From Thomasclavelia spiroformis DSM 1552 (GTDB lineage: Bacteria > Bacillota_I > Bacilli_A > Erysipelotrichales > Coprobacillaceae), in contig NZ_CP102275.1 of assembly GCF_025149465.1 (NCBI RefSeq), positions 1,054,001 through 1,118,000 of the forward strand: a DNA stretch of 64,000 bases, in the 5' to 3' direction. A program made the translations under genes and the position numbers. This document shows, one piece after another, positions 6,450-62,616 of the stretch (within the stretch, counting starts at the first letter, position 1; every line of letters starts with the position of its first letter). The notes beneath the pieces were generated by a model. The model was given only the letters and a program-made list of their open reading frames with translations. It searched no databases and was not told the DNA's origin.

Positions 6450-6779
6450 ATATAAAACCTCCTATAAATAATTCATCGTTTATTATACACGAATATTATT
6501 GATTTGTGTTGTTATCTATGAAAGTAAATAATATATTTTATGAAATATTATCGATAGTCATAATAAACTTGATAGGTTTATTGTATTTTTATGAACAAGT
6601 TAAAAAAGCTAAATTAATATTAAATAGATAGATTAACTATTTCATACAATATTATTTTATTAAAAAATTTCCTATAACATTTGCTCATTAAATAGTATAA
6701 TTTATTTAGGTATGATTTATCTTTGTTTTAAAAGATAAAAAACTAAAATCAATTGGAAATGATGAGGGGAATAAGAAAA

Positions 6780-7577
6780 ATGAGTAATAGAGATTATATA
6801 AGAGCAGGTTTTATAGACATAATTAAAGAACAATTAAAAGAAAATTTAGAGCCTAGTACTACTAAGATGTATCAACAAATTATTGATCATGGTATAAGCG
6901 AAACAAGAGCTATTGAATTACTTGCATTTTATTTAGAAGTGTTTGTTAAAGAAAGTTATTTTGCTGATGAGTTTGATAATGAAAAATGGAAAGATTTTTT
7001 AGAAAAAAATAATCATGATTATCATATTCCTGGTGAGTATGGATTTGATGTTCAAGAAGAACGTACTAATTTACGAGCAATTACAAGAAATTATGGTAAA
7101 ATAAAAACAGACGCAGTAGGAAAATGGGAAAATGAACTTTATTCAATCGAATCTTATTTATTAGCACTTTTTGAGCTATTTGAAATTAATAGTTATGAGG
7201 CAAAAAAAATCATTCATATTGTTATCAATCGATTATTCGATTTGAAAAATGGATATACTAGCGACTATACAGATTATACACATGAAGATATTTTATCATT
7301 GGCAGATGGTTTAGAACAAATATGTAACCCTTATGTAAATCCGCATTTGTATAAGTATTTGTCACAATATGTTGACTTAGAAGACAAATCACAATTTTCA
7401 TTTATATTTAAAAGTGTTTTTATATCACTTGCAAATGTATTAGATACTATTATTTATTATGAAAAAAGAGCAGGAAGTGATGGGTATTTTGATTTTATAA
7501 GTCAATTTATTGATATTGAAGAATGTATCAAAGATGGTCCAGTGTTCTTTTTTAATGATGAAACATTAAAAAAATAA
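6780..7577 (+). CDS. Hypothetical helical protein
   Basis: I do not recognise this 265-residue protein with confidence. It is acidic, soluble-looking and largely helical, without signal peptide or membrane segment. The first 70 residues (IIKEQLKENLEPSTTKMYQQ and on) faintly resemble small proteins related to DUF1841, which is only a weak impression. The start is placed at the ATG at 6780, because GAGGGG lies 10 bases upstream; an in-frame TTG at 6753 would add nine residues but has no ribosome site. It lies upstream of the Wadjet operon in the same direction, but a stem-loop and 370 bases separate them, so co-function is not shown. Confidence 0.7.
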   Translation: MSNRDYIRAGFIDIIKEQLKENLEPSTTKMYQQIIDHGISETRAIELLAFYLEVFVKESYFADEFDNEKWKDFLEKNNHDYHIPGEYGFDVQEERTNLRAITRNYGKIKTDAVGKWENELYSIESYLLALFELFEINSYEAKKIIHIVINRLFDLKNGYTSDYTDYTHEDILSLADGLEQICNPYVNPHLYKYLSQYVDLEDKSQFSFIFKSVFISLANVLDTIIYYEKRAGSDGYFDFISQFIDIEECIKDGPVFFFNDETLKK

Positions 7578-7949
7578 TAATTGTTATCATGAAGTTATTT
7601 GCTTGCTAAGTATATTAATCATTTATTAAAAAATCATTCAAGTCAGCAAGCAATAAATTATAGAAATATCAAGAATGAGTAACGATTTTAAGAAGAATAG
7701 CTAAAATTACAGGTGGAAAAAAGAAATCCAAAACATAATGTCTAGAAATAGAAGAGATATTAATGCTTGAAATTATCTTTGTGTGACACTTGTTTGTATA
7801 GTTAGTTCTTCGATTAATGTGATATCGTTACTTTACTTTTTATATAAAAAATATAAACAGGGGAAGAAAAAGATATATCGAGTTATAATAAAAGTATTTT
7901 ATTTTGTATATAACTTATATATAATTTACCATATTGAGAGGTAAAAATA
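7578..7949 (+). other. Intergenic region with long inverted repeat before the Wadjet operon
   Basis: Arms TTGCTTGCT near 7600 and AGCAAGCAA near 7645 can form a long stem-loop, perhaps terminating the upstream gene. The rest contains broken short frames without a recognisable product. A GAGAGG ribosome site precedes jetA at 7950; no strong promoter boxes stand out. Confidence 0.45.
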
Positions 7950-9440
7950 ATGGAAATATCAAACAAGTTGACTAAAGCAATTAAAGAAGTCAATTATTTA
8001 AGAGTAGAAAATGCAGCACGTTATCGTGTTATCATGCGATATTTCTTCTTAGAATATGAAAAAATACATTATTGGCTTCATAAAGAAGATATTTATGAAA
8101 TGATGACAGGTCTTGATGAGTTTCAAAATTATACGATGGATTTATGTCAACAAGACTTGCAAAGTTTAGTAGAGTGGGGCAATTTAACTGCTATTCAAGA
8201 TAGTCAAAAAGTTAAAACTGTTGAGGATTTTAAAAATCGTAAATATCGTTATCAGTTGACAGAATATAGTGTAGAAATTGAACGATTAACTATTCGTCTA
8301 GAAAATTTAGAAATTGAAGGCGCTTCATTAGAACCAACATTATTAGAACGAATTTATCAAAATTTATGTCAGATTAATGAAGTGAAAAATAAAAAAGATA
8401 GTGAAATTCATGCTTGGTTGCAATATTTAATTAATGATTTTATTACTTTAAATCAAAACTATCAGGATTATATTAAAACTTTAAATAGCGCTAAAGCTGA
8501 AGAATTAATGAAAACTGAAGCGTTTTTAGTTTATAAAGATAAATTAATTAGTTATTTAAGGTCATTTGTTAAAACAATGCAAGAAACAGGTAATTTAATT
8601 GCTTTGCAATTAGAAAGTATCGATCAAAATCTTTTAGAGAAATTAATTAATCAAGCAGTTAAATATGAATTATCAATTCCAAGAATTGATGTTGAATTAG
8701 ATGAAAAAAACATATATGACAATTATTGTGGAAAATGGGACAGTTTTTATCGCTGGTTTGTTGGAAAAGAAGGCCAAAATGAAATTGATCGTTTAAATGA
8801 TATTACTAACGAAATCATTCGTAAAATAACTCGATATGCCACTCAGATTGTTGAATTAAATAATCGTGGTTCTAATCGTAAAGAACAATATGAACATTTA
8901 GCGAAAATTTTTTTAAAATGTCGTGATATAAATGAAGCTCATTGTCTAAGTGCTTATGTTTTTGGAGTTAGTGATTGTTTACATTTAAAAAACCTTAGTC
9001 CAAGAGAGACTGATAATATAAATAGTGGCGTTTATGATGAAAAACCAGATACTCTAAAATTTGATAGTCACTCTAGAATTGTGCGTAAAAAAACAATAAG
9101 AAAACCATCAACAGATTATACATTAGAAAAAAGAATGCAGCAGTTAGAAATTGAAGAAAATATCGCCAAACAAAAAGAAAAGATAAATAAATTAATCATC
9201 AATAATCAAATTGCTTTCAATAATTTACCAGTGATTGATGAACAAACGCGTAAAACATTATTATCATGGTTATCAAAAGGGTTAGCTCAGACAAATCGAA
9301 AAGCTAAAACTGATGATGGTAAAGAATTTTACATTGACGAGCAAGAAATTGATGAAGAATGTGTTGTAAAATGTTATGATGGTAATTTTATAATGCCATC
9401 ATATAAAATTGTTTTCTTGGAGGAAACTAATGAATACTAA
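7950..9440 (+). CDS. jetA: Wadjet defence protein JetA (TIGR02677/DUF2397 type)
   Basis: First gene of a four-gene block matching in order, size and overlap the TIGR02677-02678-02680-02679 'four-pack', one of the Wadjet anti-plasmid types. At 496 residues it has the usual JetA length and acts as the kleisin-like bridge of an SMC (condensin-like) complex. The sequence is mainly helical, begins MEISNKLTKAIKEVNYLRVENAARYRVIMR in spirit of a winged-helix N-terminal domain, and has a highly charged C-terminal helix around residues 380-415. No catalytic motif is expected. The start ATG follows GAGAGGTAAAAATA. The stop overlaps the start of jetB. Assignment relies mostly on the operon, since the protein itself is divergent. 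Confidence 0.85.
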   Translation: MEISNKLTKAIKEVNYLRVENAARYRVIMRYFFLEYEKIHYWLHKEDIYEMMTGLDEFQNYTMDLCQQDLQSLVEWGNLTAIQDSQKVKTVEDFKNRKYRYQLTEYSVEIERLTIRLENLEIEGASLEPTLLERIYQNLCQINEVKNKKDSEIHAWLQYLINDFITLNQNYQDYIKTLNSAKAEELMKTEAFLVYKDKLISYLRSFVKTMQETGNLIALQLESIDQNLLEKLINQAVKYELSIPRIDVELDEKNIYDNYCGKWDSFYRWFVGKEGQNEIDRLNDITNEIIRKITRYATQIVELNNRGSNRKEQYEHLAKIFLKCRDINEAHCLSAYVFGVSDCLHLKNLSPRETDNINSGVYDEKPDTLKFDSHSRIVRKKTIRKPSTDYTLEKRMQQLEIEENIAKQKEKINKLIINNQIAFNNLPVIDEQTRKTLLSWLSKGLAQTNRKAKTDDGKEFYIDEQEIDEECVVKCYDGNFIMPSYKIVFLEETNEY

Positions 9441-10545
9441 AGAAATACTATTATCTAAAAGATGGGTTTTAAAAAAAGATGATCGGGATATGTATTATCG
9501 GATTAAAGATGATGCTAAAAATCTAAAAAGAATTTTTCAAGATAATTTTGGATATCCCCTAATTAGCCATCAAAATTTTATAAAAATTGATAAAGTTCCT
9601 GGAAAAGCTGAACCTTGGATGGGAATAACTGAATTTAAAAGTGTCGAAGAATACCGGATTTTATGTTATATTTTAATCTATTTAGAAGATAAAGATGCTG
9701 ATGAACAGTTTATCTTGTCGTATTTGACGGAATTTATTCAAATGCAATTAAATGTTAGTGAAGATTATTGGTTAAAGTTTACTAATCGTAAAATGTTTGT
9801 AAATGTTTTAAAATTTTGTTTAAAAGAACAGCTTTTCATTCAAGATGATGGAGAAATGGAACATTTTATTCAAGATGAAAATGTTGAAGTTTTATTTGAA
9901 AACACTGGGTTATCCAGATATTTTATGCGTAATTTTGTTTATGATATTTTTGAAAATCAAACTCCTCAGGATTTTATGAAAGAAGATTGGATTGGGTTGC
10001 AACAAGATCGTGGAATTGTTAGAAAGCAAAGAATTTATCGAAGACTTATGCTATCGTGTGGAATTTATAAAGAAAATGAAAATAATGATGATTTTGCTTT
10101 TATACGTCATTATCGTAAAAGAATCCAAAGCGATTTTCAAGAAATTTGTCCATGTGAATTGCAGGTTTATAAATCTAGTGCCTATTTGATATTAGATGAA
10201 GAAGTTAGAATTGGAAAAATGTTTCCCAAAAACAATACCTTAGATGAAATGATCATTATTATTATGGCTTATTTAAGAAAAAGAATTAAAAACTCTGATT
10301 TAAAAAAAGATAATAATGAAATGGTCGTTATTTCTATAAGTCGATTAAAAAATACAATTGAAAGAATGATCAAGGAAAATGAAAGCTTTTTACCAGCAAC
10401 ATATCGAAAAAAAAGTCGATCACTATTTATTGAAGAATTATATCAATATTTAATCGAATTAGGGTTTGTACAAGTAATAGACGATAATAATATAGTATTA
10501 TATCCAGTAATTGGAAAGTTAGCTGGGAATTATCAGGAGGGATAG
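9430..10545 (+). CDS. jetB: Wadjet defence protein JetB (TIGR02678/DUF2398 type)
   Basis: A 371-residue protein in the position and size range of JetB, the KITE-like winged-helix subunit of the Wadjet SMC complex. The start is set at ATG 9430, where GGAGG lies 6 bases upstream, although the frame is open a little further upstream; this start overlaps the jetA stop by 11 bases. The N-terminal part NTKEILLSKRWVLKKDDRDM and the middle PWMGITEF region have the look of the DUF2398 family. There are no catalytic motifs. It ends one base before the jetC start, consistent with one polycistronic mRNA. Confidence 0.85.
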   Translation: MNTKEILLSKRWVLKKDDRDMYYRIKDDAKNLKRIFQDNFGYPLISHQNFIKIDKVPGKAEPWMGITEFKSVEEYRILCYILIYLEDKDADEQFILSYLTEFIQMQLNVSEDYWLKFTNRKMFVNVLKFCLKEQLFIQDDGEMEHFIQDENVEVLFENTGLSRYFMRNFVYDIFENQTPQDFMKEDWIGLQQDRGIVRKQRIYRRLMLSCGIYKENENNDDFAFIRHYRKRIQSDFQEICPCELQVYKSSAYLILDEEVRIGKMFPKNNTLDEMIIIIMAYLRKRIKNSDLKKDNNEMVVISISRLKNTIERMIKENESFLPATYRKKSRSLFIEELYQYLIELGFVQVIDDNNIVLYPVIGKLAGNYQEG

Positions 10546-10546
10546 T

Positions 10547-13500
10547 ATGAGTGTAAGTCGATGGAAAATGAATCGTTTAGGATTAGTTGATTTCTGGTGT
10601 TATGAAGATGATGAGTTTGATTTTGAAAACGGTCATATGTTACTTAGAGGTAGTAATGGGAGCGGTAAATCGGTTACAATGCAAAGTATGATTCCTTTAT
10701 TGTTAGATGGAAACCGTAGTAGTGAACGACTAGATCCATTTGGTACCCGCTCTAGAAAAATGGACACTTATCTAATCGATGAAAATTCTGACCGTGATGA
10801 AAGAATTGGTTATTTATATTTAGAATTTAAAAGATTGGCCAGTGATGTTTATAAAACCATTGGAATGGGTATAAGAGCTCGTAAAAATAAGCCACTAGAA
10901 ACCTGGTATTTTGTAATTGAAGATAATCGACGGGTTAATATTGATTTTAAATTAATGGAAAACCATTTTACTTTAACAAAAAAACAATTGGAAAATGTAC
11001 TTGGTAATCAAGTTATTTCTAGTCAAAAAGAATATATGCAAAAAGTAAATGATAGTTTATTTGGATTTGAAAATATTGATGATTATAAAGATGCCATTGA
11101 TTTATTATTACAATTACGATCTCCTAAATTATCTAATTCTTTAAGCCCATCAAAAATTAATGAAATATTAGCTCAATCATTGCAACCACTAAGTGAAGAT
11201 GATTTACGACCAATGAGTGAAGCGATAACCAGTATGGATAATCTGCAAGATGATTTACAAAATTTAAATACCAGTTATGATGCAGCTAAACGCATAAATC
11301 AGGCTTATGATGTTTATAATAAAGTTATTTTAGTTGATAAGTGGCAAAAATTTAATCGTGAAAACGAGCAACAAAATCGTATTATAAAAGAAATCAAAGA
11401 TAAAGAGGTAAATTTAAATAAAATCGATATTGAATATCATCAATTACAAGAAGAATTGCAAAAAAATAAAATTAATTTAGAAATTAAACAAAGCGAAAAG
11501 AAAGATTTGATAAATCCAAACATTGAAAACATGCATAGTGAATTAGTAAATTTAAAAGATCAAAATAAAACAATTTCTATCCAAATTACTCAAAAAGAAG
11601 ACCAGCATGAAAATAAATCTAATAAAGTAATTGATTTACAAAATCAGATTGAAAAATACCAAAATGAAATGTATCAGTTAGAAAAAGAATTCAATCAAAT
11701 TACCAATACATTAAATCGTATTATTGAAGATTTTCCTTTTAGCGAACATAGTGTTCTTAAAGAAGTCTTAGATAATAATGAAAAAATAGACTTTGAGTAC
11801 ACTAAAAAATGTTTAAAACAAGAAAAAAATAACACCCAAAATATTATTAATTTATTTAATCAATACGATTCGATTCAAGAACAAATAAAAGATATTGATG
11901 ATGAAATAACAATATATAATTCTAAATTAGCTAAATGGGATCAAAAATATCAAAATGCAATGAATCAATATTCAAATTGCGTTAATCAATATCAAGAATA
12001 TTTTTATCAATTCAGTCAAACAAACCACATTTTAAAACTTAGCAGTTTAGATATCGAAACAATGACTAGCTACTTGATTGATTATGAATACAATCAAGAA
12101 TATATGTCAATATATAACATTGTTCATAATAATTATCTAAAGCATTTGGAACAATTCACAAATGAGTTGGCTTCATTAAAAACAACGTTAAAATCGCATT
12201 ATGAACAATATCAAACATTAGAAAATGAATATCAAAACTGGCTTAATAAAACTGATATTGAACCTGTTCGTGATGAATTAACAACATTATACCGTCATAA
12301 TTTATCTAAAAAACAAATCGAATATATGCCACTATTTAAATTATTGGAATTTGATCAGAATTTAGACCAAGATGAAAAAAATAAAATAGAAGAATTCTTA
12401 ACACAGATGCATTTATTAGATGCAATTATTATTGAAGAAAAGTGGCAGGAATTATTGCTCAATAATGGTGACTTAGGACATGATTATTATTTATGGACTA
12501 AAAATAGTCTTAGTGATTTAAAACCAGTACTTTTAAAAGTACCATTTGATAAAAATAGTTTATTACAATCATTAGAACAATTAGGAATTCAATTATCAGG
12601 AAATTTAGATATCAATGAAAGATATTTTAAAAATGGTGTTCTCGAAGGTTCTATTGATGGAAACATTAATTCTAGTTATATTGGTTTTCAAAGCCGCGAA
12701 CAATTTCGTCAAAAGAAATTAGAACAATTAAAGCAAGAATTAGAAGATGAAAAGCATCAAATTGAAATAATTGATAATAAAATTAACACTTTAAACGGCT
12801 CAGTTATTTTACTAAAACAAGAAATGCAATCTTTTAAAGATGAAAAAGAACTTAAAATTACATATCTACAAATAGAAAGAACCCAAAAAGAAATTGATTT
12901 TATTCAAGATAAAATCAATCAACTAACTAAGCATAAAAATGAAAAAGAAAAAAATCTTGAAAATATCTATCAACAAATAAAACAAGGCTGTAATGTACTA
13001 TTGATCAATGTTTCTAAAGGTGCATTAATAAATCGACTTGAAAACATTGAAGAATATGATAATAGTTTAGATGAGTTGAAAAATAATCTTGATCATATTA
13101 ATAACATAAACTCACTATTAACAATCAATCAGGATAATTTATTAGAATTTCAAGTGGACGTTGATTTTTTAAATGCAGAAATAATTAAGTTAAAACATAA
13201 CTATCAAATAAATTCAGGTAAGATTAATAATATTGAACAACAACTAAAGGAAGCAGGTTATACCGATTTACAACAAAAATTAGAACAGCTTGATCAAGAA
13301 ATAGTCACTTTGCAACAAGCAATCGAAGATAATGTTTCTTTATCTTCAACAAAAAAAGCTGAACAATCTTATAATAAAGATGAATTAATTAACTTAAAGG
13401 AACAATTAACATTACAAGAAAAATATACTAAAAAATATCATGACATTTTAATGCAGGAAGTTCAATATGGCTTTATTTTTAAAGAAGATGATAATTTGTT

Positions 13501-14542
13501 TAAAAATTTAAAACAATTAACTAGTAAAATAAAAATAAATAAACCTGTTAATGAATATGCAACTAGTTTGCAGGGAGTTTTTTTTGAACAAGCTTCATAT
13601 TTATCACAGTATCATTTGACTCATGAAGTTGATGAATTATGTCATGAAGCTGATGATGTAACTGGTCATTTTATTATTAAAGCTACTTATTTGGGAAAGA
13701 AAATTCCTTTTATTGAATTACTAAATATTCTGCAAGAACGAATTGAATCACAAAAAATGTTAATTCAAGAAGAGGATCGACATATTTTTGAAGAGATTCT
13801 AGTAAATACGATTGGTAAAAAAATAAGGGACCGTATTCAGGCTAGTCGACGCTGGATCGATAAAATGGAACGTTACATTAAAGATATGAATACTAGTAGC
13901 GGATTGCAATTGACTTTAAAATGGCAAAGTAAAAAATCTATAGATGATGATGAATTAGATATTCAAAATTTAGTTAAATTATTAGAAAAAGATTATCGTA
14001 TTTTAAAAGATAGTGATCGTCAAAAAATTTCTCAGCATTTTAGAACCAAAATTGAAAACGCTCGCCGGTTAAGCCTTGATGAAAATATCTCTGCTTCATT
14101 TCATCAATTAATTAGAGAGGTAATGGATTATCGCCAATGGTTCGAATTTGTATTATACGCAAAAAAACCTAATGAAAATCGTAAAGAACTGACTAATCGA
14201 ATCTTTTTTGCTTATAGTGGTGGTGAAAAAGCAATTTCGATGTATGTCCCATTGTTCTCTGCTGTTGCTGCTAAATTTGAAAGTGCTAGATTCGATGCGC
14301 CACATTTAATTGCTTTAGATGAAGCTTTTGCTGGAGTTGACGAAAATAATATTGATAATCTATTTGCATTAATTACTAAATTTGATTTTGATTATATTAT
14401 GAATTCACAGGTTTTATGGGGAGATTATCCATCTTGTCCATCACTAGCTATTTATGAACTATTTAGACCTAATAATGCTCCATTTGTTACTAAAATCGCT
14501 TATAAATGGAATGGTCATGAACGACGGGTTGTTATTAAATGA
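10547..14542 (+). CDS. jetC: Wadjet SMC-like ATPase JetC (TIGR02680 type)
   Basis: A 1331-residue SMC/MukB-like ATPase, the motor of the complex, which in studied Wadjets extrudes DNA loops and recognises small circular DNA. The Walker A motif GSNGSGKS is at residues 35-42. Two very long Gln/Glu/Lys-rich coiled coils (about 255-560 and 725-1000) flank a central globular hinge-like domain near 590-720. The ABC signature YSGGEKA is at about 1222 and Walker B LIALDEAF at about 1254-1261. The start has AGGAGGG 6 bases ahead. The stop overlaps the jetD start in ATGATG, suggesting coupled translation. All ATPase motifs are intact, so the system looks functional. Confidence 0.95.
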   Translation: MSVSRWKMNRLGLVDFWCYEDDEFDFENGHMLLRGSNGSGKSVTMQSMIPLLLDGNRSSERLDPFGTRSRKMDTYLIDENSDRDERIGYLYLEFKRLASDVYKTIGMGIRARKNKPLETWYFVIEDNRRVNIDFKLMENHFTLTKKQLENVLGNQVISSQKEYMQKVNDSLFGFENIDDYKDAIDLLLQLRSPKLSNSLSPSKINEILAQSLQPLSEDDLRPMSEAITSMDNLQDDLQNLNTSYDAAKRINQAYDVYNKVILVDKWQKFNRENEQQNRIIKEIKDKEVNLNKIDIEYHQLQEELQKNKINLEIKQSEKKDLINPNIENMHSELVNLKDQNKTISIQITQKEDQHENKSNKVIDLQNQIEKYQNEMYQLEKEFNQITNTLNRIIEDFPFSEHSVLKEVLDNNEKIDFEYTKKCLKQEKNNTQNIINLFNQYDSIQEQIKDIDDEITIYNSKLAKWDQKYQNAMNQYSNCVNQYQEYFYQFSQTNHILKLSSLDIETMTSYLIDYEYNQEYMSIYNIVHNNYLKHLEQFTNELASLKTTLKSHYEQYQTLENEYQNWLNKTDIEPVRDELTTLYRHNLSKKQIEYMPLFKLLEFDQNLDQDEKNKIEEFLTQMHLLDAIIIEEKWQELLLNNGDLGHDYYLWTKNSLSDLKPVLLKVPFDKNSLLQSLEQLGIQLSGNLDINERYFKNGVLEGSIDGNINSSYIGFQSREQFRQKKLEQLKQELEDEKHQIEIIDNKINTLNGSVILLKQEMQSFKDEKELKITYLQIERTQKEIDFIQDKINQLTKHKNEKEKNLENIYQQIKQGCNVLLINVSKGALINRLENIEEYDNSLDELKNNLDHINNINSLLTINQDNLLEFQVDVDFLNAEIIKLKHNYQINSGKINNIEQQLKEAGYTDLQQKLEQLDQEIVTLQQAIEDNVSLSSTKKAEQSYNKDELINLKEQLTLQEKYTKKYHDILMQEVQYGFIFKEDDNLFKNLKQLTSKIKINKPVNEYATSLQGVFFEQASYLSQYHLTHEVDELCHEADDVTGHFIIKATYLGKKIPFIELLNILQERIESQKMLIQEEDRHIFEEILVNTIGKKIRDRIQASRRWIDKMERYIKDMNTSSGLQLTLKWQSKKSIDDDELDIQNLVKLLEKDYRILKDSDRQKISQHFRTKIENARRLSLDENISASFHQLIREVMDYRQWFEFVLYAKKPNENRKELTNRIFFAYSGGEKAISMYVPLFSAVAAKFESARFDAPHLIALDEAFAGVDENNIDNLFALITKFDFDYIMNSQVLWGDYPSCPSLAIYELFRPNNAPFVTKIAYKWNGHERRVVIK

Positions 14543-15789
14543 TGTTAAAAGAATGTATTGAATATTTTAAACATCCTGGCTTTAAAAGATTCAATCAAGC
14601 TTGGATTAAAAAATATCAAAGTTTGGGACATTTAGGTGGTCAAATTACTTTATTTAATTTATCATCTTTAGAAAAAGAAACAATTGGTGCTTTTCTTGGA
14701 ACTGATTTATCTAATGGAACATTAAAAATAAGTTATAGAAAATTTAATCAATTATTACAAGAAACAAAATTTGAAGGAATAGATTATCTTGATGTTTTAA
14801 ATCATTTAGATAATAAACCAATTATTACCAATAAAGAAATAAAATCTAAAAAAATACTATTAATTGAAAACTTTAAAGAGTATTTTTTGACCAAGTATAG
14901 TCAAGATCACTGTTATCCGTGGTTATTAGCATATTTAAATAATGATGCTCAAGTAAATCGGTATATTTATAAAAATAAAAATGAGTTTTTAAAAGAATTA
15001 GATAAGATTGCTACAGCATTAAATAACTTACCAGTTTATCAAAATCAATATCTTTTATTACCAGTTTTTAGTCAGAGAATCACTGGAGATCCACATTTTT
15101 TTGATCAGGATTTTCATAAAAAACTATTAATAGATGGAATCACAGTATTATTAAAAACTGATAAACAAAAACTCACATTACATAATATAAACGATATATT
15201 ATTTCAAGCAGGATTACTAAAAGACGATTTGTCAAATAACTGTTATATTTGCCATCTTAAGCCGGACACTGCTTCAAATTGGGAAGGGTTTTATCAAAAC
15301 TATGAGCCATGGAATATGAATCTCTATAATTTGATGCAAGTAAAACAAAAGTTTAAAGCAATGAATGTTTATATTGTTGAAAATCCATCAGTTTTTCGGG
15401 TCTTAGTAAATTATATTAAAGATAAGCAGCTAGATGTAGGATTGATTTGTAGTAATGGACAAATTAATCTATGTACGTATATGTTATTAGATTATTTAAG
15501 CCAAAGTGGATGTATCCTATATTATGCAGGTGATTTTGATCCAGAGGGATTACTAATTAGTGATAAATTGAAACAAAGATATTTAGATACACTTAATTTG
15601 TGGGGATATAGTAAAGAAAATTTTTATCAAATTTTATCTAAGCAACAACATCTTTTTAGTAAAAGAATGAAAAAGCTTTATAATCTTCAAACTCCTGTAT
15701 TAAAAGATATTGCTGATTTAATAATTAAAAATGCTGCTTTTGGCTATCAGGAAGGTCTAATTTCTTTCTATAAAAAAACAATTAGGTAA
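14539..15789 (+). CDS. jetD: Wadjet nuclease JetD (TIGR02679, DUF3323/DUF2399, TOPRIM fold)
   Basis: A 416-residue protein with an N-terminal DUF3323-like arm domain and a C-terminal TOPRIM nuclease domain (about 270-400). The catalytic glutamate is visible in VENPSVFRVL (E281), and the DxD-like motif in AGDFDPEGLL (residues 332-337). In Wadjet, JetD cleaves plasmid DNA after loop extrusion by JetABC. The start ATG overlaps the jetC stop and has no strong ribosome site of its own, so it probably depends on translational coupling. The gene closes the operon and is followed directly by a strong terminator. Confidence 0.92.
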   Translation: MMLKECIEYFKHPGFKRFNQAWIKKYQSLGHLGGQITLFNLSSLEKETIGAFLGTDLSNGTLKISYRKFNQLLQETKFEGIDYLDVLNHLDNKPIITNKEIKSKKILLIENFKEYFLTKYSQDHCYPWLLAYLNNDAQVNRYIYKNKNEFLKELDKIATALNNLPVYQNQYLLLPVFSQRITGDPHFFDQDFHKKLLIDGITVLLKTDKQKLTLHNINDILFQAGLLKDDLSNNCYICHLKPDTASNWEGFYQNYEPWNMNLYNLMQVKQKFKAMNVYIVENPSVFRVLVNYIKDKQLDVGLICSNGQINLCTYMLLDYLSQSGCILYYAGDFDPEGLLISDKLKQRYLDTLNLWGYSKENFYQILSKQQHLFSKRMKKLYNLQTPVLKDIADLIIKNAAFGYQEGLISFYKKTIR

Positions 15790-15790
15790 A

Positions 15791-15842
15791 AGGGGCTGTA
15801 ACGAATAAAGATTTTTAATCTTTAGACGTTACGCCTTTTTTT
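15791..15842 (+). terminator. Terminator of the jetABCD operon
   Basis: GGC-GTAACG and CGTTACGCC arms, with an inner AAAGATT/AATCTTT hairpin, are followed by eight T residues directly behind jetD. Confidence 0.85.
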
Positions 15843-15948: not shown

Positions 15949-16341
15949 TTAGGAAATTGACATCTCCTTCTTTTTCATCTTTTTATTGTGGTATTTTCGT
16001 ATATTATAGGCAATCCCTATTAACAGCAGTTCTGTTTTTACATTTATGTTCCCTCTTCTTTTTAATCGGACATAATCCATATTCTGCTTTATTATTCCAA
16101 ATGTCCCTTCTGACTGTATACTTCTTTGCTTTTTCATCTCTTTTCCTTCTTCGGTTCCAAGATTTTCATCTACTTTATCCTGCATTTCATTTAAGGCATA
16201 ATTTATCTGTATTTTTCTTTGCTCCTTTGCCTTTGTACATTTTTCTTTTACTTTACAGTCATGACATTTACCACACTCGAATACTCTGCTGATTGTTAAT
16301 GTCAATATAAAATTCACCAAAAGTGTTAGTTTAACTTTCAC
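15949..16341 (-). pseudogene. IS1182-family transposase, C-terminal remnant
   Basis: The readable part starts at a cysteine cluster (CGKCHDCKVKEKCTK) and continues to QRSIQSEGTFGIIKQN, which holds the final catalytic Glu of the DDE set, and ends in a basic tail. This is the last quarter of a typical IS1182 transposase. The first 20 or so residues of the open frame (MKVKLTLLVNFILT) are not of the family, so the element was cut here and joined to the IstB remnant. It cannot be active. Confidence 0.8.
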
Positions 16342-16760
16342 CAGTTCTGGTTGTTATGATCTTTATCTTCAATCATGGACATCTTATCCTTTGTTCGATA
16401 TGACCTTCCTGTGATATTTATGATATGTGAATGATGGATAAGTCTGTCTAAGATTGCATTCGCTAATACATTATCACCAAAAACCTCTCCCCAGTGTGAC
16501 AGTGATTTGTTGGTTGTTATGATTGTTGAATGTTTCTCATACCTTTTTGTTATCAGCTGAAAAAGAAGATTCGATGATTCGCTATCCAGTGGAAGAAATC
16601 CTACCTCATCTATGATAAGAAGCTTATATTTTGCGAAGAATTTCAGTCGTGTTTCTAGCCTGTTTTCTAGATGGGCTCTTTTTAGCTGCAGAATGAGATC
16701 GTTGCAGTTTATGAAATATTTTATATAGAGAAGAGTGGTAACGTACGAATCACTGTTCAC
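16338..16760 (-). pseudogene. istB: IS21-family helper ATPase IstB, truncated
   Basis: Matches the second half of IstB: LIIDEVGFLPLDSE (Walker B), then NLLFQLITKRYEKHSTIITTNKSL, GDNVLANAILDRLIHHSHI and GRSYRTKDK. The N-terminal domain and Walker A motif are missing, because the frame runs into group II intron sequence at about 16750. Its stop overlaps the start of the IS1182 remnant frame. No istA partner is seen nearby. Confidence 0.85.
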
Positions 16761-17165
16761 AAGAAATCTAAAGAAAAGATGAAAAAGAGAATAAAGGAAA
16801 TCACCAAAAGGAACCGACCAATATCAAGTAAGGAATTAGCTAAAGAGTTAAAAGAATACATTACAGGTTGGGTGAATTACTATAGGATAGCGAATATGAG
16901 TAAACATCTAAGGGAAATAGACTCATGGATGAGAAGAAGAATACGAATGATATATTGGAAAAGATGGAAGTTAGTAAGAACAAGGTATAGAAATTTACAA
17001 AAACTAGGTATTAATAAAAGTAAGGCATGGGAATGGGCAAACACAAGAAAAAGCTACTGGCACATCGCCAATAGCTTCATACTAAAAAGGACACTTACAA
17101 ATGAAGTATTAAAAATATACGGATTTATAAGTGCACTAGATTATTACAACTCTATAAACTTATGA
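16755..17165 (+). pseudogene. ltrA: Group II intron reverse transcriptase/maturase, C-terminal fragment
   Basis: The frame reads from VHKKSKEKMKKR through the maturase (domain X) segment YITGWVNYYRIANM and SWMRRRIRMIYWKRWK to KSYWHIANSFILKRTL, the normal C-terminus of bacterial group II intron proteins. All reverse transcriptase motifs, including YADD, are missing upstream, where the frame meets the IstB remnant. The ribozyme 3' end follows immediately. Confidence 0.88.
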
Positions 17166-17426: not shown

Positions 17427-18080
17427 GTGAATAATTATAAAATATTAATTGTTGATGATGATAAAGAAATTTGTATAGCACTAAAAGAAATATTGGAAAA
17501 ACAATAATATATTGTTGTAGAAGCATCTAATGGTGATGAAGCAATTAGCAAAATAAATAATGATATCGATTTGATCATTTTAGATATTATGATGCCTAAT
17601 AGAGGTGGAATAACAACATGTATTGAAATTAGAGAAAATTATGACATGCTGATATTATTTTTAACTGTTAAGAGTACTGAATATGACAAATATATTGGTT
17701 TATCTATGGGTGGTGATGATTATTTATCAAAACCATTTTCAAAAATAGAATTACTTGCACGAATTTCTTCTTTGATTAAAAGATATCAAGTATATCAAAA
17801 TAAGCAAAGTAAAAACTCACCATTAAAAAATAATTACATATATATCAAAGATTTACGAATTGATAAATATGCTTCAAGAGTTTATAAAAACAATCAAGAA
17901 ATAACTCTTACAAATATCGGATATAAAATATTAATGTTATTAGCACAGCATAAAAATAAAATATTTACTTTAGAAAATTTGTATGAAAGTATTTGGCATG
18001 AATCATATGATTCTTCAAAAAGTTCTCAATATATAAAGAATGTGTGGGGAAGGGGATATTGCATTGAAGAGGATAAATAA
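17427..18080 (+). pseudogene. OmpR-family response regulator with nonsense codon and internal deletion
   Basis: Starting at GTG 17427 (a GGTGA-like ribosome site precedes it) the frame reads NNYKILIVDDDKEICIALKEILEKQ and then hits TAA at 17505-17507. After it the same frame resumes as YIVVEASNGDEAI, the phosphorylation site LIILDIMMPN, and LTVKSTEYDKYIGLSMGGDDYLSKPF. The single stop could come from a CAA-to-TAA change. The winged-helix output domain is also damaged: HESYDSSKSSQYIKNVWGRGY lacks about 18-20 residues usually present between the recognition helix and VWGRGY, an in-frame deletion. An internal start could yield a truncated protein at most, probably without normal DNA binding. The kinase gene downstream is intact. 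Confidence 0.85.
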
Positions 18081-19374
18081 ATTTAGAACACTTAAAATGG
18101 AATTATTTTTATTATGTGCAGTAGCATTTATTATCTGTCTATTCTTTTATGCGATTACTTCTACTGTTGCTAGTGGACTAATTGATTCATATTTTAATGA
18201 TCGTCAAAATATTGAAGCAATTGAAAAAAGAAATCTCAAGTCGCTACAAAAATATGTTACAGATAAAGAAGTCACCCTTAAGGAAATAGAACAAATAAAA
18301 TCATGGTCACTTCATCAAGAAAATGTTCTTTTAAAAGTATATTTTAATGGATATTTGATATATGATAGTATTTATGGAATGACTGAAAATAGCAATTTAG
18401 CATTGGAAAATGAAAATGATTATTCAAAATTAAATTTATATAATTTAACTTTAAAAGATGCAAAAGTAAATGTAAATTTGTTATGTTTTGATTATACTCT
18501 TCAAAATAATGTAAGTACAGTCATTTCAATTATTACAATCTTACTATTTTTTTTCATAATAATTGCTGGAGTAAGAAAAAAAATTAAATATCTTGTTCAA
18601 TTATACAATGATCTAAATGGATTATCTAATAATTTAAATCATGAAGTTCATATTGAAGGATGTGATGAAATAACACAAGTTGCTTATGGAATAGATTCCT
18701 TAAGAAAGTCAGTTATTGAAAAAATCGAAAATGAAAAAAGAGCTTATGATGCAAATATGCAACTTATAACTACTTTATCGCACGATATCAAAACTCCATT
18801 AACGTCAATTATTGCTTTTATTGAATTAGCTAAAGGTCAAGTTCAAAAAGACGATATAACATATAACTATTTAAATACAGCATATGAAAAATCATTTCAT
18901 TTAAACAATTTAATCAATGAATTATTTTCGCATTTTTTATTACATTCAAATTCATATGAAATTAAATTTGAAAAAGTAGATTCTGATATTTTAGTTAGTC
19001 AAATCTTAGAAGAAAATCTTTATGAATTAGAATCAAAAGGAACTATAATAAAAAAAGAAACCAGTGATATTTCTTCTTATATTTATGTAAACATAACTTT
19101 ATTTCATCGATTATTCAATAATATTTTTTCAAACATTAATAAATATGCTGACTTAAAAAAACCTATTTTAATCAAATATTATCTAATAGATAATGATTTA
19201 ATTATCATAATTAAAAATACAAAAAAGAAAGAAAAAAGTTTTAAACAATCATCAACAAAAATAGGATTAAATAATTGTAAAGCGATTATGAAAAAACATA
19301 ATGGGCAATTCATCACGCATGAAGATAATAATATATTTATAATAGAATTACATTTTCCTATTCATAAAAAATAA
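18064..19374 (+). CDS. Sensor histidine kinase
   Basis: A membrane kinase of about 436 residues. The likely start is TTG at 18064, as GGGGAAGGGG lies about 8 bases upstream; it overlaps the end of the response regulator. Segments in order are a first membrane helix (about 10-32), an extracytoplasmic domain of about 120 residues, a second helix (VISIITILLFFFIIIAGV), a HAMP-like linker, the HisKA box TLSHDIKTPLTSII with the phosphorylated His, and a HATPase domain with the N box LFNNIFSNINKYAD. The ATP-lid part is weak: no clear DxGxG is visible, only GLNNCKAIMKKHNG. Its partner regulator is broken, so signalling is probably lost or redirected. Confidence 0.85.
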   Translation: MKRINKFRTLKMELFLLCAVAFIICLFFYAITSTVASGLIDSYFNDRQNIEAIEKRNLKSLQKYVTDKEVTLKEIEQIKSWSLHQENVLLKVYFNGYLIYDSIYGMTENSNLALENENDYSKLNLYNLTLKDAKVNVNLLCFDYTLQNNVSTVISIITILLFFFIIIAGVRKKIKYLVQLYNDLNGLSNNLNHEVHIEGCDEITQVAYGIDSLRKSVIEKIENEKRAYDANMQLITTLSHDIKTPLTSIIAFIELAKGQVQKDDITYNYLNTAYEKSFHLNNLINELFSHFLLHSNSYEIKFEKVDSDILVSQILEENLYELESKGTIIKKETSDISSYIYVNITLFHRLFNNIFSNINKYADLKKPILIKYYLIDNDLIIIIKNTKKKEKSFKQSSTKIGLNNCKAIMKKHNGQFITHEDNNIFIIELHFPIHKK

Positions 19375-37728: not shown

Positions 37729-39154
37729 ATGAAATGGGAACATTTATTTAGAGGGTGCCGTAGTTAATGAACATATTTCAAAAAATAATATTAGTGCAAA
37801 ATAATGATTACGATGTTGAAATAATTTTTGATGATGACGAAATAATTGAGATGTATTGTTCTTGTCCATATGCTATGGATGGGCATAATTGTAAGCATAT
37901 AACAGCAGTTTTATATACATATCAGGAGCATATAGAATACAAATAATCAATAAACAATTATATTTCCAATAATTCTTCTACACTTGATGAAATCATTGAA
38001 AAAGCTAGTGATAAACAAGTACGTGATTTTCTTTTTAATGTTTTAAAAGATGATGATAAACTTTTATTGAAGTTTAAAATGTTAGTAGACAAGTCGAAGA
38101 TAGATATAAAGCAATATAAAAAAACAAATCAATAAAACAATTAAATCATTTTTAGGACGAGATTATTTTATTTCATATCATCAAGCTGGTAAGTTTATAA
38201 TGGCTATGGAAAAATACTTAGATGAAAGTGTTAATATGATGATTGATGCTGGTAATTACTTAGAAGCTTTTGAGTTAACTAGTTATTTATTTTTAAGTGT
38301 ATTTAATGTCGAGATGGATGATTCTGATGATGGCCTTGGAATGTTTGCTAGTAAGTGTTATTAAGTGTGGAATAAAATTTCAGATCAAGCTAATGAGCAA
38401 ATTGAAGCTAAAATATATCAATGGTTTATTAAATATTTGATGGTCCGTTATTGATTACATTGAAGAGTATTTAGAAGAGATTTTAATGGAACAATTTAAA
38501 AGTGAAAAAAGTTTAAAAGATAAATTATTATATACAGAAAATAAGGTAATGCTTGAAAAAAATCAGAAAGTTGGACAACAAATTATAATATTGAAAATTG
38601 GGCTTTAAATCACATTAAAATAATGGAAGAATTAAAATTTTCATTTGATGATATTGATAAATATTGTAAAGAAAACTGTAAATATCCAAGAATTCGAGAA
38701 TATTATATTTCAACATGTATTAATAAAAAAATAATATAACCAAGCAATCAAAGTTTTAAAAGAATCATTAAAGTTAGGTGCAGATAAATTAGGATTAGTT
38801 AAAGAACATAACTTAAAATTAAAGGAGTTATATTGATCATTTATATAAAGAAGGAAAACTCTATGATCGATTATTAGATTATGTTTTGAAATCACCAGGC
38901 TTAAATTATGTATTTAAATATGAAAATATTTTAAAAGATGATTATTTTCAAGAACTATTACAAAAATATACTGAAGAATTAAATAAGATGGCTACTTATA
39001 TAGTTAATCAAAAAATATAAGGAATAGATAATGATCCTAAAAAAAAATGACGAAAATCAAAGCTGGTGATAAAACTGTTCGAGATATAGTTAAAAATTGG
39101 AAAATTATGTATAGTAAAAGAAAAACAACGATGGAAGAATTAGAAAGATTATAG
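37729..39154 (+). pseudogene. SWIM zinc-finger protein, decayed
   Basis: An intact ribosome site (AAAGGAGATG) and start MKWEHLFRGCRS stop at once at TAA. Downstream frames together spell a SWIM-family protein: YCSCPYAMDGHNCKHITAVLY is the CxC...CxH zinc motif, followed by recognisable pieces such as NNSSTLDEIIEKASDKQVRD, GRDYFISYHQAGKFIMAMEK, YCKENCKYPRI and a Lys-rich end TTMEELERL, with several frameshifts and stops between. It follows the kinase gene by 19 bases and was probably once in that operon or just behind it. Confidence 0.8.
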
Positions 39155-46076: not shown

Positions 46077-46090
46077 CAAAATACAAAGAT

Positions 46091-46196
46091 AAAAACGCAA
46101 CGTAAGAAATGTGATCTTACAGAGTCGGTAGGTAGCCCGGTCGCACCAATTGGTGTAAGTAACCCTCCCTCCTTAGGGTCGTCCATTCTTTGCTTA
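46091..46196 (+). ncRNA. yjdF motif RNA (azaaromatic-sensing riboswitch)
   Basis: The leader directly before a yjdF gene contains the GCAACGTAAG...CTTAC stem, a GTCGGTAGGTAGCCC junction and the CACCAATTGGTG hairpin. Location plus sequence fit the yjdF riboswitch class, known to bind diverse azaaromatic compounds. Its end carries CCTCCTTA (46168-46175), which is complementary to the TAAGGAGG ribosome site at 46208-46215, so ligand-dependent control of translation start is likely. Confidence 0.8.
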
Positions 46197-46222
46197 GTAT
46201 TATTATTTAAGGAGGAATTGTC

Positions 46223-46639
46223 ATGGACAAAGTATCAATCAAAGTGACAGTATTTTTTGAAATGCCATTTTGGGTAGGTGTTTTTGAACAGATATCGCAA
46301 GAAAAATTATCTGTATGTAAAGTTACATTTAAAACGGAGCCAAAAGATTATGAGGTATATCATTTTATTTTGAAAAACTACTATCGCTTGCACTTTAGTC
46401 TGGCTGTGGCAACTGATGTAAAAGAGGTAAATTATAATCCAAAACGAATGCAACGTGAAGTACGCAAACAAATGCATAATACTGGATTAGCAACAAAATC
46501 TAGGCAAGCTTTAAAATTACAGCAGGAGCAGTTTAAAATTGAACGTAAGATGAAAAACCGCAAACAACAAGAAATAAATAAAAAGCGTAAATTTGAACTG
46601 AAACAGCAAAAAAGAAAGGAAAAGCATAGGGGCAGATAA
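46223..46639 (+). CDS. yjdF: YjdF family protein (DUF2992)
   Basis: A 138-residue protein with the family start SIKVTVFFEMPFWVGVFEQ and the motif FKTEPKDYEVYHFILKNYYRLHFS, followed by a long, very basic Lys/Arg/Gln helix to the end. Function unknown; its usual riboswitch suggests a part in handling toxic aromatic nitrogen compounds. AAGGAGG lies 7 bases before the ATG and can be masked by the riboswitch. Confidence 0.92.
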   Translation: MDKVSIKVTVFFEMPFWVGVFEQISQEKLSVCKVTFKTEPKDYEVYHFILKNYYRLHFSLAVATDVKEVNYNPKRMQREVRKQMHNTGLATKSRQALKLQQEQFKIERKMKNRKQQEINKKRKFELKQQKRKEKHRGR

Positions 46640-56337: not shown

Positions 56338-57153
56338 TTAATTGATACTAATTAAATAATCATGCTCATATTCATTAGGTGATTTATAATCACAATGTGA
56401 ATGTACTCTTATTGTATTATAAAATCCTTCTATGTATTCAAATACCAGCTTATATGCATGATTATAATTTATAATCTTAAATCTGTTCAGCCATTCCCTT
56501 TTTATCAATGCATGATATGATTCTATACACGCATTATCCCACGGTGTTCCTTTTTGTGAATAGCTTCTTTTCATCTGCTTAGTTAATCTTTTGTATTTCT
56601 TCGATGTATAGTGCACTCCGCGATCTGCATGGATTACTATTGGTTTTGCGCTTTTTCTTCTTTTTTTAGCTGTTTCCAGACATTTTAATACTTCATCTAC
56701 TTCTAATGTTTTGCTTAATGTCCATGCTATTATTTTTCTTGAATAGAGATCCATTATACTGGTTAAATATACAAATCCTTCATCTGCTGTCCAGATATAT
56801 GTTATATCAGTACACCATGCCTGATTTGGTGCTTTTGGATTAAAATCTCGGTTTAGAATATTTTTTAGTTTATTTGAAAAATCACAGTCTTTTGTTGTTA
56901 TTGTATATGGTTTGATATAATGAGCTTTAATATTGTTTTCCCTCATTATGTTTCCTACATATTTTTCACTTATTTTTTCTCCCTCTTTTTTTAGTATTTC
57001 AGTTATTTTAGGAGCTCCATATATTTCTTTTGAATCCTTATAGATTTTCTTGATTCTTTCTGTGATTCTAGCTTTTCTGATTTTTTGTTTACATGGTTTT
57101 CTTTTCAAATATTCATAATATCCTGATTTACTCAGTTGTAATTTTTTTAGCAT
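56338..57153 (-). CDS. IS3-family transposase OrfB, copy 1
   Basis: A 271-residue DDE integrase-core protein (longer when fused to OrfA). HTH_21-like region ITERIKKIYKDSKEIYGAPK, then the catalytic residues in WCTDITYIWT (D), HADRGVHYTS (D) and NACIESYHALIKREW (E). All three are intact, so the copy may be active. It is read as an OrfAB fusion after -1 slippage at 57246-57252 on the minus strand. Confidence 0.95.
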   Translation of the reverse strand: MLKKLQLSKSGYYEYLKRKPCKQKIRKARITERIKKIYKDSKEIYGAPKITEILKKEGEKISEKYVGNIMRENNIKAHYIKPYTITTKDCDFSNKLKNILNRDFNPKAPNQAWCTDITYIWTADEGFVYLTSIMDLYSRKIIAWTLSKTLEVDEVLKCLETAKKRRKSAKPIVIHADRGVHYTSKKYKRLTKQMKRSYSQKGTPWDNACIESYHALIKREWLNRFKIINYNHAYKLVFEYIEGFYNTIRVHSHCDYKSPNEYEHDYLISIN

Positions 57154-57221
57154 ACCGGTAACTGAAGTCTGTTTATCTTTTTTAGATTTTTCTTTTATCC
57201 TTTTATAAAGATCCTGCTTAG

Positions 57222-57518
57222 TTAATTGCCCAGTATGCCAATAGCCTTTTTTAGGACTTCTAAAGCATCCTGTGTATCTTTCAGTTCTTTTTTTAATCTG
57301 GCAATTTCTTTAGCTTCGTCACTTGAATAATTACCGCTTCCTCTTGAATTAATTACGCCGTCATTACTACTGGCATCTTTAAGCCATTTATGAACAGTGC
57401 TATCAGCAATACCAAACTGTTTAGCTATAGCTACTTTAGATTCATCAGGATGTTCTAAAACATATTGAACAACTCCCTGTTTAAATTCATCTGTAAATGT
57501 TGGTTTAGTCATCATCAT
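57222..57518 (-). CDS. IS3-family transposase OrfA, copy 1
   Basis: A 98-residue HTH protein starting MMMTKPTFTDEFKQGVVQY, with an HTH (VAIAKQFGIADSTVHKWLK) and a leucine-zipper-like end (ARLKKELKDTQDALEVLKKA). The start is chosen at the ATG run at 57518, because AAAAGGGG lies just upstream. Near its end, CTAAAAAAGGCT has the slippery AAAAAAG (57246-57252, minus strand) that would give the OrfAB fusion. Confidence 0.92.
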   Translation of the reverse strand: MMMTKPTFTDEFKQGVVQYVLEHPDESKVAIAKQFGIADSTVHKWLKDASSNDGVINSRGSGNYSSDEAKEIARLKKELKDTQDALEVLKKAIGILGN

Positions 57519-57682
57519 ATACCCCTTTTCTATTTTTGATTTAAGCTTATGACATTGTATCATATACTAGCTAGTTCTTCCATTTAACTGGTACAGTTTT
57601 TATTCTAGCATCAATTTAATCTTGTTGACGGTCGTTGTGGAACGATAAATCTCAAAGTTTACAATTATATCCAATGTTACAT

Positions 57683-57719
57683 AAAGCGGTTATTAGTTAA
57701 TATGATTTACCGCTTTTTC
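57683..57719 (+). terminator. Terminator-like hairpin
   Basis: AAAGCGGT and ACCGCTTT with a T run follow the IS copy. No intact gene lies upstream on this strand. Confidence 0.55.
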
Positions 57720-57762
57720 TATATCTAGAAAGAGATGTTTATAAACTTATACAAATACAAAG

Positions 57763-57897
57763 GAAAGCGAATCAAGTAAGCGTATCATAGGACACGCTCA
57801 TTTTGATGTGACTATGGAAGTGTATAATCACTTGGGCGACAGGGCAAGGATTGAAAACGAGATAGCAAAGCTGGATAGTATGACGGTAAACTTCTGA
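57763..57897 (+). pseudogene. Tyrosine recombinase (integrase) C-terminal remnant
   Basis: The frame ESSKRIIGHAHFDVTMEVYN, HLGDRARIENEIAKLDSMTV and stop matches the end of phage/ICE integrases, including the GHxxxxxTMxVY segment with the nucleophilic tyrosine. All upstream domains are gone. GTGTCAAATTGGTGTCAAA follows. A degenerate relative of this end and flank is at 47035-47115. Confidence 0.8.
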
Positions 57898-58019
57898 CAC
57901 CGGAAAAGAAAAAATTGGTGTCAAATTGGTGTCAAACCTAAGAAAAATGACAATTTCAAGAGTGGAAAATGCTTGCAAACCATTGATTTTACTGGGTTTG
58001 CAAAAAAATATAAAAATTA

Positions 58020-58062
58020 TTAGCACTTACCTCTTGACAGTGCTAAAAAATAAGGCTATAAT
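58020..58062 (+). promoter_or_regulatory. CIRCE operator and consensus promoter of hsp20
   Basis: TTAGCACTT (58020-58028), 9 bases, CAGTGCTAA (58038-58046) match the CIRCE element bound by HrcA. TTGACA (58034-58039), exactly 17 bases and TATAAT (58057-58062) form a perfect promoter whose -35 lies within CIRCE. Heat-shock repression by HrcA is strongly suggested. Confidence 0.92.
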
Positions 58063-58170
58063 ATAGTTAGAAATTAGGAAAGAGAAAAAACCTAGTTTCT
58101 CATATAACATTGCATCTTCAACAATGCTAATATGATCTAAGTGTCAAACAACAGAAAGGGGTAATGACTT

Positions 58171-58611
58171 ATGATGATGCCTAGTATTTTTGGAGAAAAT
58201 TTATTTGATGATTGGATGGATTCTTTTGAAGAAGAATTTTTTGGAAGAAAAAATCCACTATATGGTAAACATGCAAAGAATATGATGAAAACAGATGTGC
58301 GTGAAACAGATGGCACATACGAAGTAGATATTGATTTACCTGGTTTTAAAAAAGAAGATATTTCAGTTTCATTTGAAAATGGATATTTAACTGTATCTAC
58401 AAATAAAACTCTTGATCGAGATGATAAAGATAAAGACGGTAAATATATTCGCCAAGAAAGATATGCAGGAAGCATGTCAAGAAGCTTTTTTATCGGAAAG
58501 AATATTCCTAAAGAAGATATCAAAGCTAAATATGAAGATGGTGTATTGAGATTATCAGTACCTAAAAAAGATATCAAGGTTATTGAAAACAATACAATTA
58601 GTATTGAATAA
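58171..58611 (+). CDS. hsp20: Small heat shock protein Hsp20
   Basis: A 146-residue alpha-crystallin-type holdase chaperone. The short Phe/Asp-rich N-terminal arm (FGENLFDDWMDSFEEEFFG) leads to the alpha-crystallin domain (about 40-135: DVRETDGTYEVDIDLPGFKK, ENGYLTVSTNK, GVLRLSVPKK) and the end with IEVIENN-type IxI element ISIE. GAAAGGGG ribosome site. The leader of about 100 bases can form GAGAAA/TTTCTC and CATTG/CAATG hairpins. Expression is governed by CIRCE; no other chaperone gene is nearby. It is an intact gene inside a region of mobile debris. Confidence 0.96.
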   Translation: MMMPSIFGENLFDDWMDSFEEEFFGRKNPLYGKHAKNMMKTDVRETDGTYEVDIDLPGFKKEDISVSFENGYLTVSTNKTLDRDDKDKDGKYIRQERYAGSMSRSFFIGKNIPKEDIKAKYEDGVLRLSVPKKDIKVIENNTISIE

Positions 58612-58618
58612 TAGATTA

Positions 58619-58645
58619 GAGATTGCTTAGGCAATCTCTTTTTTA
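58619..58645 (+). terminator. Terminator of hsp20
   Basis: GAGATTGC-TTAG-GCAATCTC followed by six T. The group II intron 5' end begins immediately after, a target choice known for class C introns. Confidence 0.92.
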
Positions 58646-59113
58646 GTGTGCCACGCATGACATAAGACTAGGTGGTGAAAGTCCACTGTGGGGGTTTCGT
58701 ACTACCAACCACTAGCCGAAGACAAGGTATCCATCGTAAGGTGTGAACGGGAGGAAGTTGGAGGCAAAGTCCTGACCCAAGGAATACGAACTATTTTAGG
58801 CAGAAGCTTATCGGATGAGATTGCTAAACAAATCGAAGTCCAATAGTACGACGGAATAAGCAGTGTAAAGATAGTGGGTACATAGGATGAAAGTGTTATG
58901 TCTTACCGTGGGAGGTCCTAGGAACATGATGAAAATGTAATCATGGTGGAAACGTTTGTCCTAGGAAGTCAGCCGAGGTCATAGTAGTGATGATGATAAC
59001 TGTAATGGTTATCTAGCGAAGGACCGAACATAAGGAGGTGAACTGGAAATGAAAGATACTCAAGATAAAATAGGATACTGTCAACTATCATTAGGCTTAC
59101 TCTATGAAGATAG
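58646..59113 (+). mobile_element. Group II intron, 5' part (ribozyme domains and start of its protein)
   Basis: Begins GTGTGCCACGCATGACATAA, the GUGYG-type 5' splice end, and continues with the highly structured domain I sequence (GGTGGTGAAAGTCCACTG, ACCAACCACTAGCCGAAG, GGAGGCAAAGTCCTGACC). At ATG 59049 the intron protein starts (KDTQDKIGYCQLSLGLLYED) and is cut by IS copy 2 at 59114. No 3' part follows; a 3' fragment of a similar intron is at 16755-17230. The insertion point directly behind a terminator stem is that favoured by class C introns; the class is inference. Confidence 0.82.
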
Positions 59114-59208
59114 TGATGCTAGAATAAAAACTGTACCAGTTAAATGGAAGAACTAGCTAGTATATGATACAATGTCATAAGCTTAAATCAAAAATAGAAA
59201 AGGGGTAT

Positions 59209-59505
59209 ATGATGATGACTAAACCAACATTTACAGATGAATTTAAACAGGGAGTTGTTCAATATGTTTTAGAACATCCTGATGAATCTAAAGTAGCTAT
59301 AGCTAAACAGTTTGGTATTGCTGATAGCACTGTTCATAAATGGCTTAAAGATGCCAGTAGTAATGACGGCGTAATTAATTCAAGAGGAAGCGGTAATTAT
59401 TCAAGTGACGAAGCTAAAGAAATAGCCAGATTAAAAAAAGAACTGAAAGATACACAGGATGCTTTAGAAGTCCTAAAAAAGGCTATTGGCATACTGGGCA
59501 ATTAA
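59209..59505 (+). CDS. IS3-family transposase OrfA, copy 2
   Basis: Apparently the same protein as the copy 1 OrfA: N-terminal HTH for end recognition and C-terminal leucine-zipper-like helix. Start at ATG 59209 behind AAAAGGGG. The slippery AAAAAAG at 59475-59481 in the phase A-AAA-AAG permits a -1 shift into the orfB frame (KKGYWHTGQLTKQDLYKRIK), making the full OrfAB transposase. Confidence 0.92.
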   Translation: MMMTKPTFTDEFKQGVVQYVLEHPDESKVAIAKQFGIADSTVHKWLKDASSNDGVINSRGSGNYSSDEAKEIARLKKELKDTQDALEVLKKAIGILGN

Positions 59506-59573
59506 CTAAGCAGGATCTTTATAAAAGGATAAAAGAAAAATCTAAAAAAGATAAACAGACTTCAGTTACCGGT

Positions 59574-60389
59574 ATGCTAAAAAAATTACAACTGAGTAAA
59601 TCAGGATATTATGAATATTTGAAAAGAAAACCATGTAAACAAAAAATCAGAAAAGCTAGAATCACAGAAAGAATCAAGAAGATCTATAAGGATTCAAAAG
59701 AAATATATGGAGCTCCTAAAATAACTGAAATACTAAAAAAAGAGGGAGAAAAAATAAGTGAAAAATATGTAGGAAACATAATGAGGGAAAACAATATTAA
59801 AGCTCATTATATCAAACCATATACAATAACAACAAAAGACTGTGATTTTTCAAATAAACTAAAAAATATTCTAAACCGAGATTTTAATCCAAAAGCACCA
59901 AATCAGGCATGGTGTACTGATATAACATATATCTGGACAGCAGATGAAGGATTTGTATATTTAACCAGTATAATGGATCTCTATTCAAGAAAAATAATAG
60001 CATGGACATTAAGCAAAACATTAGAAGTAGATGAAGTATTAAAATGTCTGGAAACAGCTAAAAAAAGAAGAAAAAGCGCAAAACCAATAGTAATCCATGC
60101 AGATCGCGGAGTGCACTATACATCGAAGAAATACAAAAGATTAACTAAGCAGATGAAAAGAAGCTATTCACAAAAAGGAACACCGTGGGATAATGCGTGT
60201 ATAGAATCATATCATGCATTGATAAAAAGGGAATGGCTGAACAGATTTAAGATTATAAATTATAATCATGCATATAAGCTGGTATTTGAATACATAGAAG
60301 GATTTTATAATACAATAAGAGTACATTCACATTGTGATTATAAATCACCTAATGAATATGAGCATGATTATTTAATTAGTATCAATTAA
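59574..60389 (+). CDS. IS3-family transposase OrfB, copy 2
   Basis: Apparently identical to copy 1 OrfB, with intact DDE residues (WCTDITY, HADRGVHY, NACIESYH). The orfB frame is open upstream of its first ATG back to the slippery site, as needed for OrfAB fusion. As both copies match base for base where compared, they moved or were duplicated recently. Confidence 0.95.
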   Translation: MLKKLQLSKSGYYEYLKRKPCKQKIRKARITERIKKIYKDSKEIYGAPKITEILKKEGEKISEKYVGNIMRENNIKAHYIKPYTITTKDCDFSNKLKNILNRDFNPKAPNQAWCTDITYIWTADEGFVYLTSIMDLYSRKIIAWTLSKTLEVDEVLKCLETAKKRRKSAKPIVIHADRGVHYTSKKYKRLTKQMKRSYSQKGTPWDNACIESYHALIKREWLNRFKIINYNHAYKLVFEYIEGFYNTIRVHSHCDYKSPNEYEHDYLISIN

Positions 60390-62604: not shown

Positions 62605-62616
62605 AAGCAGGTGAAA

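Follow-up and report, generated by a model that had tools for sequence, protein, structure and literature searches.

Our analyses have identified, in a window of 64,000 nucleotides from Thomasclavelia spiroformis DSM 1552 (NZ_CP102275.1, positions 1,054,001 to 1,118,000), a set of four genes (viz. jetA, jetB, jetC and jetD) which, judged by the sequences of its products, is a chromosomal type II Wadjet, a known kind of bacterial system which draws in small circular plasmids and cuts them. The operon is a textbook type II Wadjet, and the more interesting part is the biology of its locus, a hotspot for defence genes that in some relatives holds a type I Wadjet instead.

The four genes lie in the order listed on a single strand (+) and are all uninterrupted (7950-15789 of the window). 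They encode a kleisin-like protein of 496 aa (jetA, 7950..9440; DUF2397/TIGR02677), a KITE-like protein of 371 aa (jetB, 9430..10545; DUF2398/TIGR02678), an SMC/MukB-like ATPase of 1331 aa (jetC, 10547..14542) and a TOPRIM nuclease of 416 aa (jetD, 14539..15789; DUF3323 and DUF2399). A sequence-only reading of this DNA had described four overlapping genes, which is correct for jetA/jetB (11 nt) and jetC/jetD (4 nt) but not for jetB and jetC, which are separated by a gap of 1 nt. Ribosome-binding sites are located 5' of jetA, jetB and jetC, that of jetB being a GGAGG ahead of an ATG start, and the operon is present as a single copy in the one-contig genome of 2.53 Mb. The same reading held the operon to be isolated by strong terminators. 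This applies on the downstream side, where an intrinsic terminator (15788..15842, + strand; -22.6 kcal/mol, z -6.0 against shuffled sequences) is followed by a U run, whereas upstream of jetA an inverted repeat (7599-7653) has no greater folding stability than shuffled sequences (z -0.3) and is without a U tract. The insertion sequence and intron wrecks reported after the operon are recognized by Pfam (PF13751, PF01695 and PF08388 across 15949..17165) as fragments of a DDE transposase (15949-16341, - strand), of IstB (16338-16760, - strand) and of a group II intron maturase (16779-17165, + strand), and these remnants close the island. A two-component system is found beside the island (17430-19374), its response regulator carrying an in-frame TAA near the start, at about 17505. 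Elsewhere in the window, group II intron RNA domains are located between two identical genes for 271-aa integrase-like transposases in opposite orientation (56338-60389), and a yjdF azaaromatic riboswitch (46079-46639) lies directly upstream of a gene for a 138-aa protein at 46223.

The family identity of the four proteins is indicated by searches against NCBIfam (curated bit-score cut-offs of 166, 124.65, 196 and 463 for TIGR02677, TIGR02678, TIGR02679 and TIGR02680, respectively), Pfam, PADLOC and PDB. The best PADLOC models for all four proteins are those of type II Wadjet, far ahead of the type I and type III models, in agreement with the earlier description of a complete Wadjet operon. 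JetA matches TIGR02677 with 318 bits, PADLOC JetA2 (1e-194) and PF09660 (DUF2397, 1e-138), and its alignment with the JetA chain of PDB 9qe0 (1e-79) is near full-length; JetB matches TIGR02678 with 129.7 bits, PADLOC JetB2 (8e-130) and PF09661 (DUF2398, 3e-81), and aligns with the JetB chain of 9qe0 (7e-53) over residues 5-311 of 371. The proposed match of JetA and JetB to DUF2397 and DUF2398 is thus seen in both proteins. JetC matches TIGR02680 with 704 bits, PADLOC JetC2 with an E-value of 0 and Pfam SbcC_Walker_B, and is aligned near full-length with the JetC chain of 9qe0 (1e-181), while its match to the Pfam MukB N-terminus is weak and below the cut-off. The proposed assignment to TIGR02677-02680 holds for the first two and the last of these families, whereas JetD matches TIGR02679 (146 bits, E 2e-42) under the NCBI cut-off of 196. 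Despite this score JetD is, by its sequence matches, a clear JetD2, as it matches PADLOC JetD2 (1e-112) and, both over the cut-off, PF11796 (DUF3323, 4e-31) and PF09664 (DUF2399, 8e-21). With E-values from 1e-37 down to 0 in NCBIfam, Pfam and PADLOC, these matches cannot be due to chance, and a type I JetA (PF18982) has no match anywhere in the whole genome (G000).

The catalytic motifs of JetC and JetD, which had been described as intact, are also retained in their relatives. The Walker A (GSNGSGKS, residues 35-42), signature (SGGEK, from residue 1224) and Walker B (LIALDEA, from residue 1254) motifs of JetC are identical or near-identical across 10 JetC proteins, and the TOPRIM residues E281 and D332-x-D334 of JetD are invariant across 8 JetD proteins. 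The alternation of strands and helices predicted at residues 276-354 of JetD fits a TOPRIM domain (model mean pLDDT 65.7, poor in the middle), the fold expected of a type II JetD being a CAP domain with a TOPRIM dimer; a fold search with this low-confidence model gave topoisomerase VI A as its best match (E 0.1, not significant). A search of PDB sequences matched no JetD of this type, the JetD profile giving a weak match to topoisomerase VI A alone (E 0.02 with the whole sequence), and an hhalign comparison of JetD2 with JetD1 was not significant, the Glu and DxD regions being aligned. In comparison with the sister genome G036, jetA-D are without stops or frameshifts and show dN/dS of 0.04-0.14 at dS of 0.60-0.83, indicating that selection has maintained the proteins while these two copies diverged. 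These open genes, intact motifs and signs of purifying selection suggest an operon that is well preserved and apparently working.

The locus itself varies among relatives. The gene order efp-fabG-lysdc-rSAM-alr-orf6753 is common to G036 and the window, and genes of the MKVKEL, SWIM and CRISPR kinds are located between orf6753 and the Wadjet in G036; the MKVKEL gene is absent from the G000 genome. In G042, the stretch after the SWIM gene is without CRISPR or Wadjet genes and leads to the same p174-TetR-NADH oxidoreductase genes. Between the window and G036, the core genes from efp to alr show dS of 0.15-0.35, and orf6753 shows 0.99. Because the silent-site divergence of jetA-D exceeds that of the five flanking core genes (by about 2-5x), the sequences fit a separate acquisition of the Wadjet operons of the two sister species, or their replacement by recombination. 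In a second genus, the equivalent junction, which runs from orf6753 to an SNF2 gene, holds a type II Wadjet in G001 and a type I Wadjet plus one gene for a 495-aa protein in G002; in G003 it is empty, orf6753 directly adjoining SNF2, and a type II Wadjet lies a few kb off on the other side. Two loci of relatives (L056:5324-9324 and L049:14298-18208) hold a TOTE conflict-system primase/helicase gene, which is broken into pieces in L049, followed by an uncharacterised 320-aa MKVKEL gene and orf6753 adjoining a Wadjet. The window also contains a broken SWIM zinc-finger gene (37788-39151), related to the intact one by orf6753 in G036 and G042, and the start of a CRISPR-Cas locus with Cas3-like and Cas4-like genes (60442-63105), 80% identical to the cas3 of G042.

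The uncharacterised gene orf6753 (6753..7577, + strand; 274 aa) is a flank of the hotspot rather than a member of the operon. It matches no Pfam, NCBIfam or PADLOC family over the cut-off, its likelier start is the ATG at 6780 (after AGGGG) and not the TTG at 6753, and a six-frame reading of the 372 nt between it and jetA revealed no hidden gene. Homologues are found in 16 of the 43 family genomes, near a type I or type II Wadjet in G001, G018, G002 and G003, and also in contexts unrelated to Wadjet. The reading of orf6753 as a fifth gene of the Wadjet was discarded as the default, since G028 and G033 carry it behind an elongation-factor-G-like gene without a Wadjet in the vicinity, and G003 and G036 have other genes separating it from the Wadjet.

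Type II JetC has a patchy distribution, being found in 11 of the 43 family genomes and broken or split in two of these (G023 and G024). All plasmid matches to JetC are below 60% identity, and searches of phage and viral contigs with JetC gave no match, hence no sign of a phage-borne copy. Within the family, strong JetC1 matches are present in 15 genomes, JetC2 in 11 and both in none (P under independence 0.004, the related genomes being non-independent); at the level of the order, JetA1 is present in 32 genomes, JetC2 in 24 and both in none (P 0.07, with the same non-independence). As the genomes are related, the co-occurrence test was conceived after the data were seen and draft genomes can miss genes, the exclusivity of types I and II is a lead only. 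As the two types substitute for each other at an equivalent junction and share none of these genomes, one may ask whether they interfere or are merely redundant. One rather doubtful possibility is that the two types are redundant or mutually incompatible and exchange at the shared locus by orf6753, which would then be an accessory of the locus and not a passive flank.

A type II Wadjet acting by extrusion and cleavage of circles is very probably the best explanation for this operon. In the proposed mechanism, JetA, JetB and JetC would form an SMC-type loop-extruding motor acting as a pair of joined units, which would load on DNA without sequence preference and then reel it in, driven by ATP. 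If the DNA is a small closed circle, this extrusion would be completed and the motors would stall, which would activate the TOPRIM nuclease JetD to cut the circle; the chromosome and linear DNA would be spared because extrusion there never completes. If so, the operon may be one reason that plasmids are hard to keep in this gut genus.

Two other explanations have been considered for the same genes. The operon could be a silent or non-functional remnant, having the right sequence but no expression or activity in this strain. Its neighbourhood gives this some plausibility, as the insertion sequence and intron fragments, the response regulator with its in-frame stop (about 17505) and the split SWIM gene (37.8-39.2 kb) are all broken, and jetC is itself broken or split in the two relatives noted above; the four genes of the operon, however, are open with intact motifs and low dN/dS against the sister species, and they retain ribosome-binding sites before jetA, jetB and jetC and a strong terminator, so that we regard a remnant as improbable. 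The complex could also be a chromosome organiser of the condensin kind (MukBEF/MksBEF-like) and not a defence system, a reading suggested by the MukB-like character of JetC and its weak, sub-threshold match to the MukB N-terminus. A nuclease with intact catalytic residues as the last gene of the operon argues against such a role, as do the patchy occurrence of jetC2 sequences in the family and the placement of the locus among CRISPR and TOTE genes in relatives, which make it very improbable. Returning to the Wadjet explanation, its steps in this host, from extrusion of DNA and sensing of circles to their cleavage and the exclusion of plasmids, are assigned by analogy with work on other Wadjets.

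In characterised Wadjets, JetABC extrudes DNA and JetD cuts once extrusion of the circle is complete (PMC10586767, PMC12647877). According to PMC12647877, which cites a separate paper for the structure, a type II Wadjet from Neobacillus vireti cuts naked circular DNA in vitro; we infer that PDB 9qe0/9qe1 represent this system (nvJET), the code being absent from the text of PMC12647877 that was searched. Deletion of jetABCD in Clostridium cellulovorans led to higher plasmid uptake by conjugation, and the Wadjet of that species was compared with that of Bacillus cereus Q1 (PMC12287153). No paper naming both Wadjet and Thomasclavelia was found in the literature searched.

The JetA, JetB and JetC families are common to the type II Wadjet of PDB 9qe0/9qe1 and the window operon, although the sequences have diverged and the JetB match stops at residue 311 of 371. 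Type I Wadjet shares the four-gene architecture and the presumed mechanism, but its JetA (PF18982) and JetB (DUF4194) belong to other families than those of the window operon and its JetC, of about 1080 aa, is shorter. The nearest named JetC relatives are those of Erysipelatoclostridium sp. An173 (87% identity) and of a Thomasclavelia MAG (65%). The type II Wadjet of An173 (L004), whose sequences G036 also carries, shows 85-94% aa identity to the window operon in all four proteins; it differs in its position, which is about 17 kb downstream of the alr/orf6753 junction after the MKVKEL, SWIM and CRISPR genes, whereas the window operon follows this junction without these genes between.
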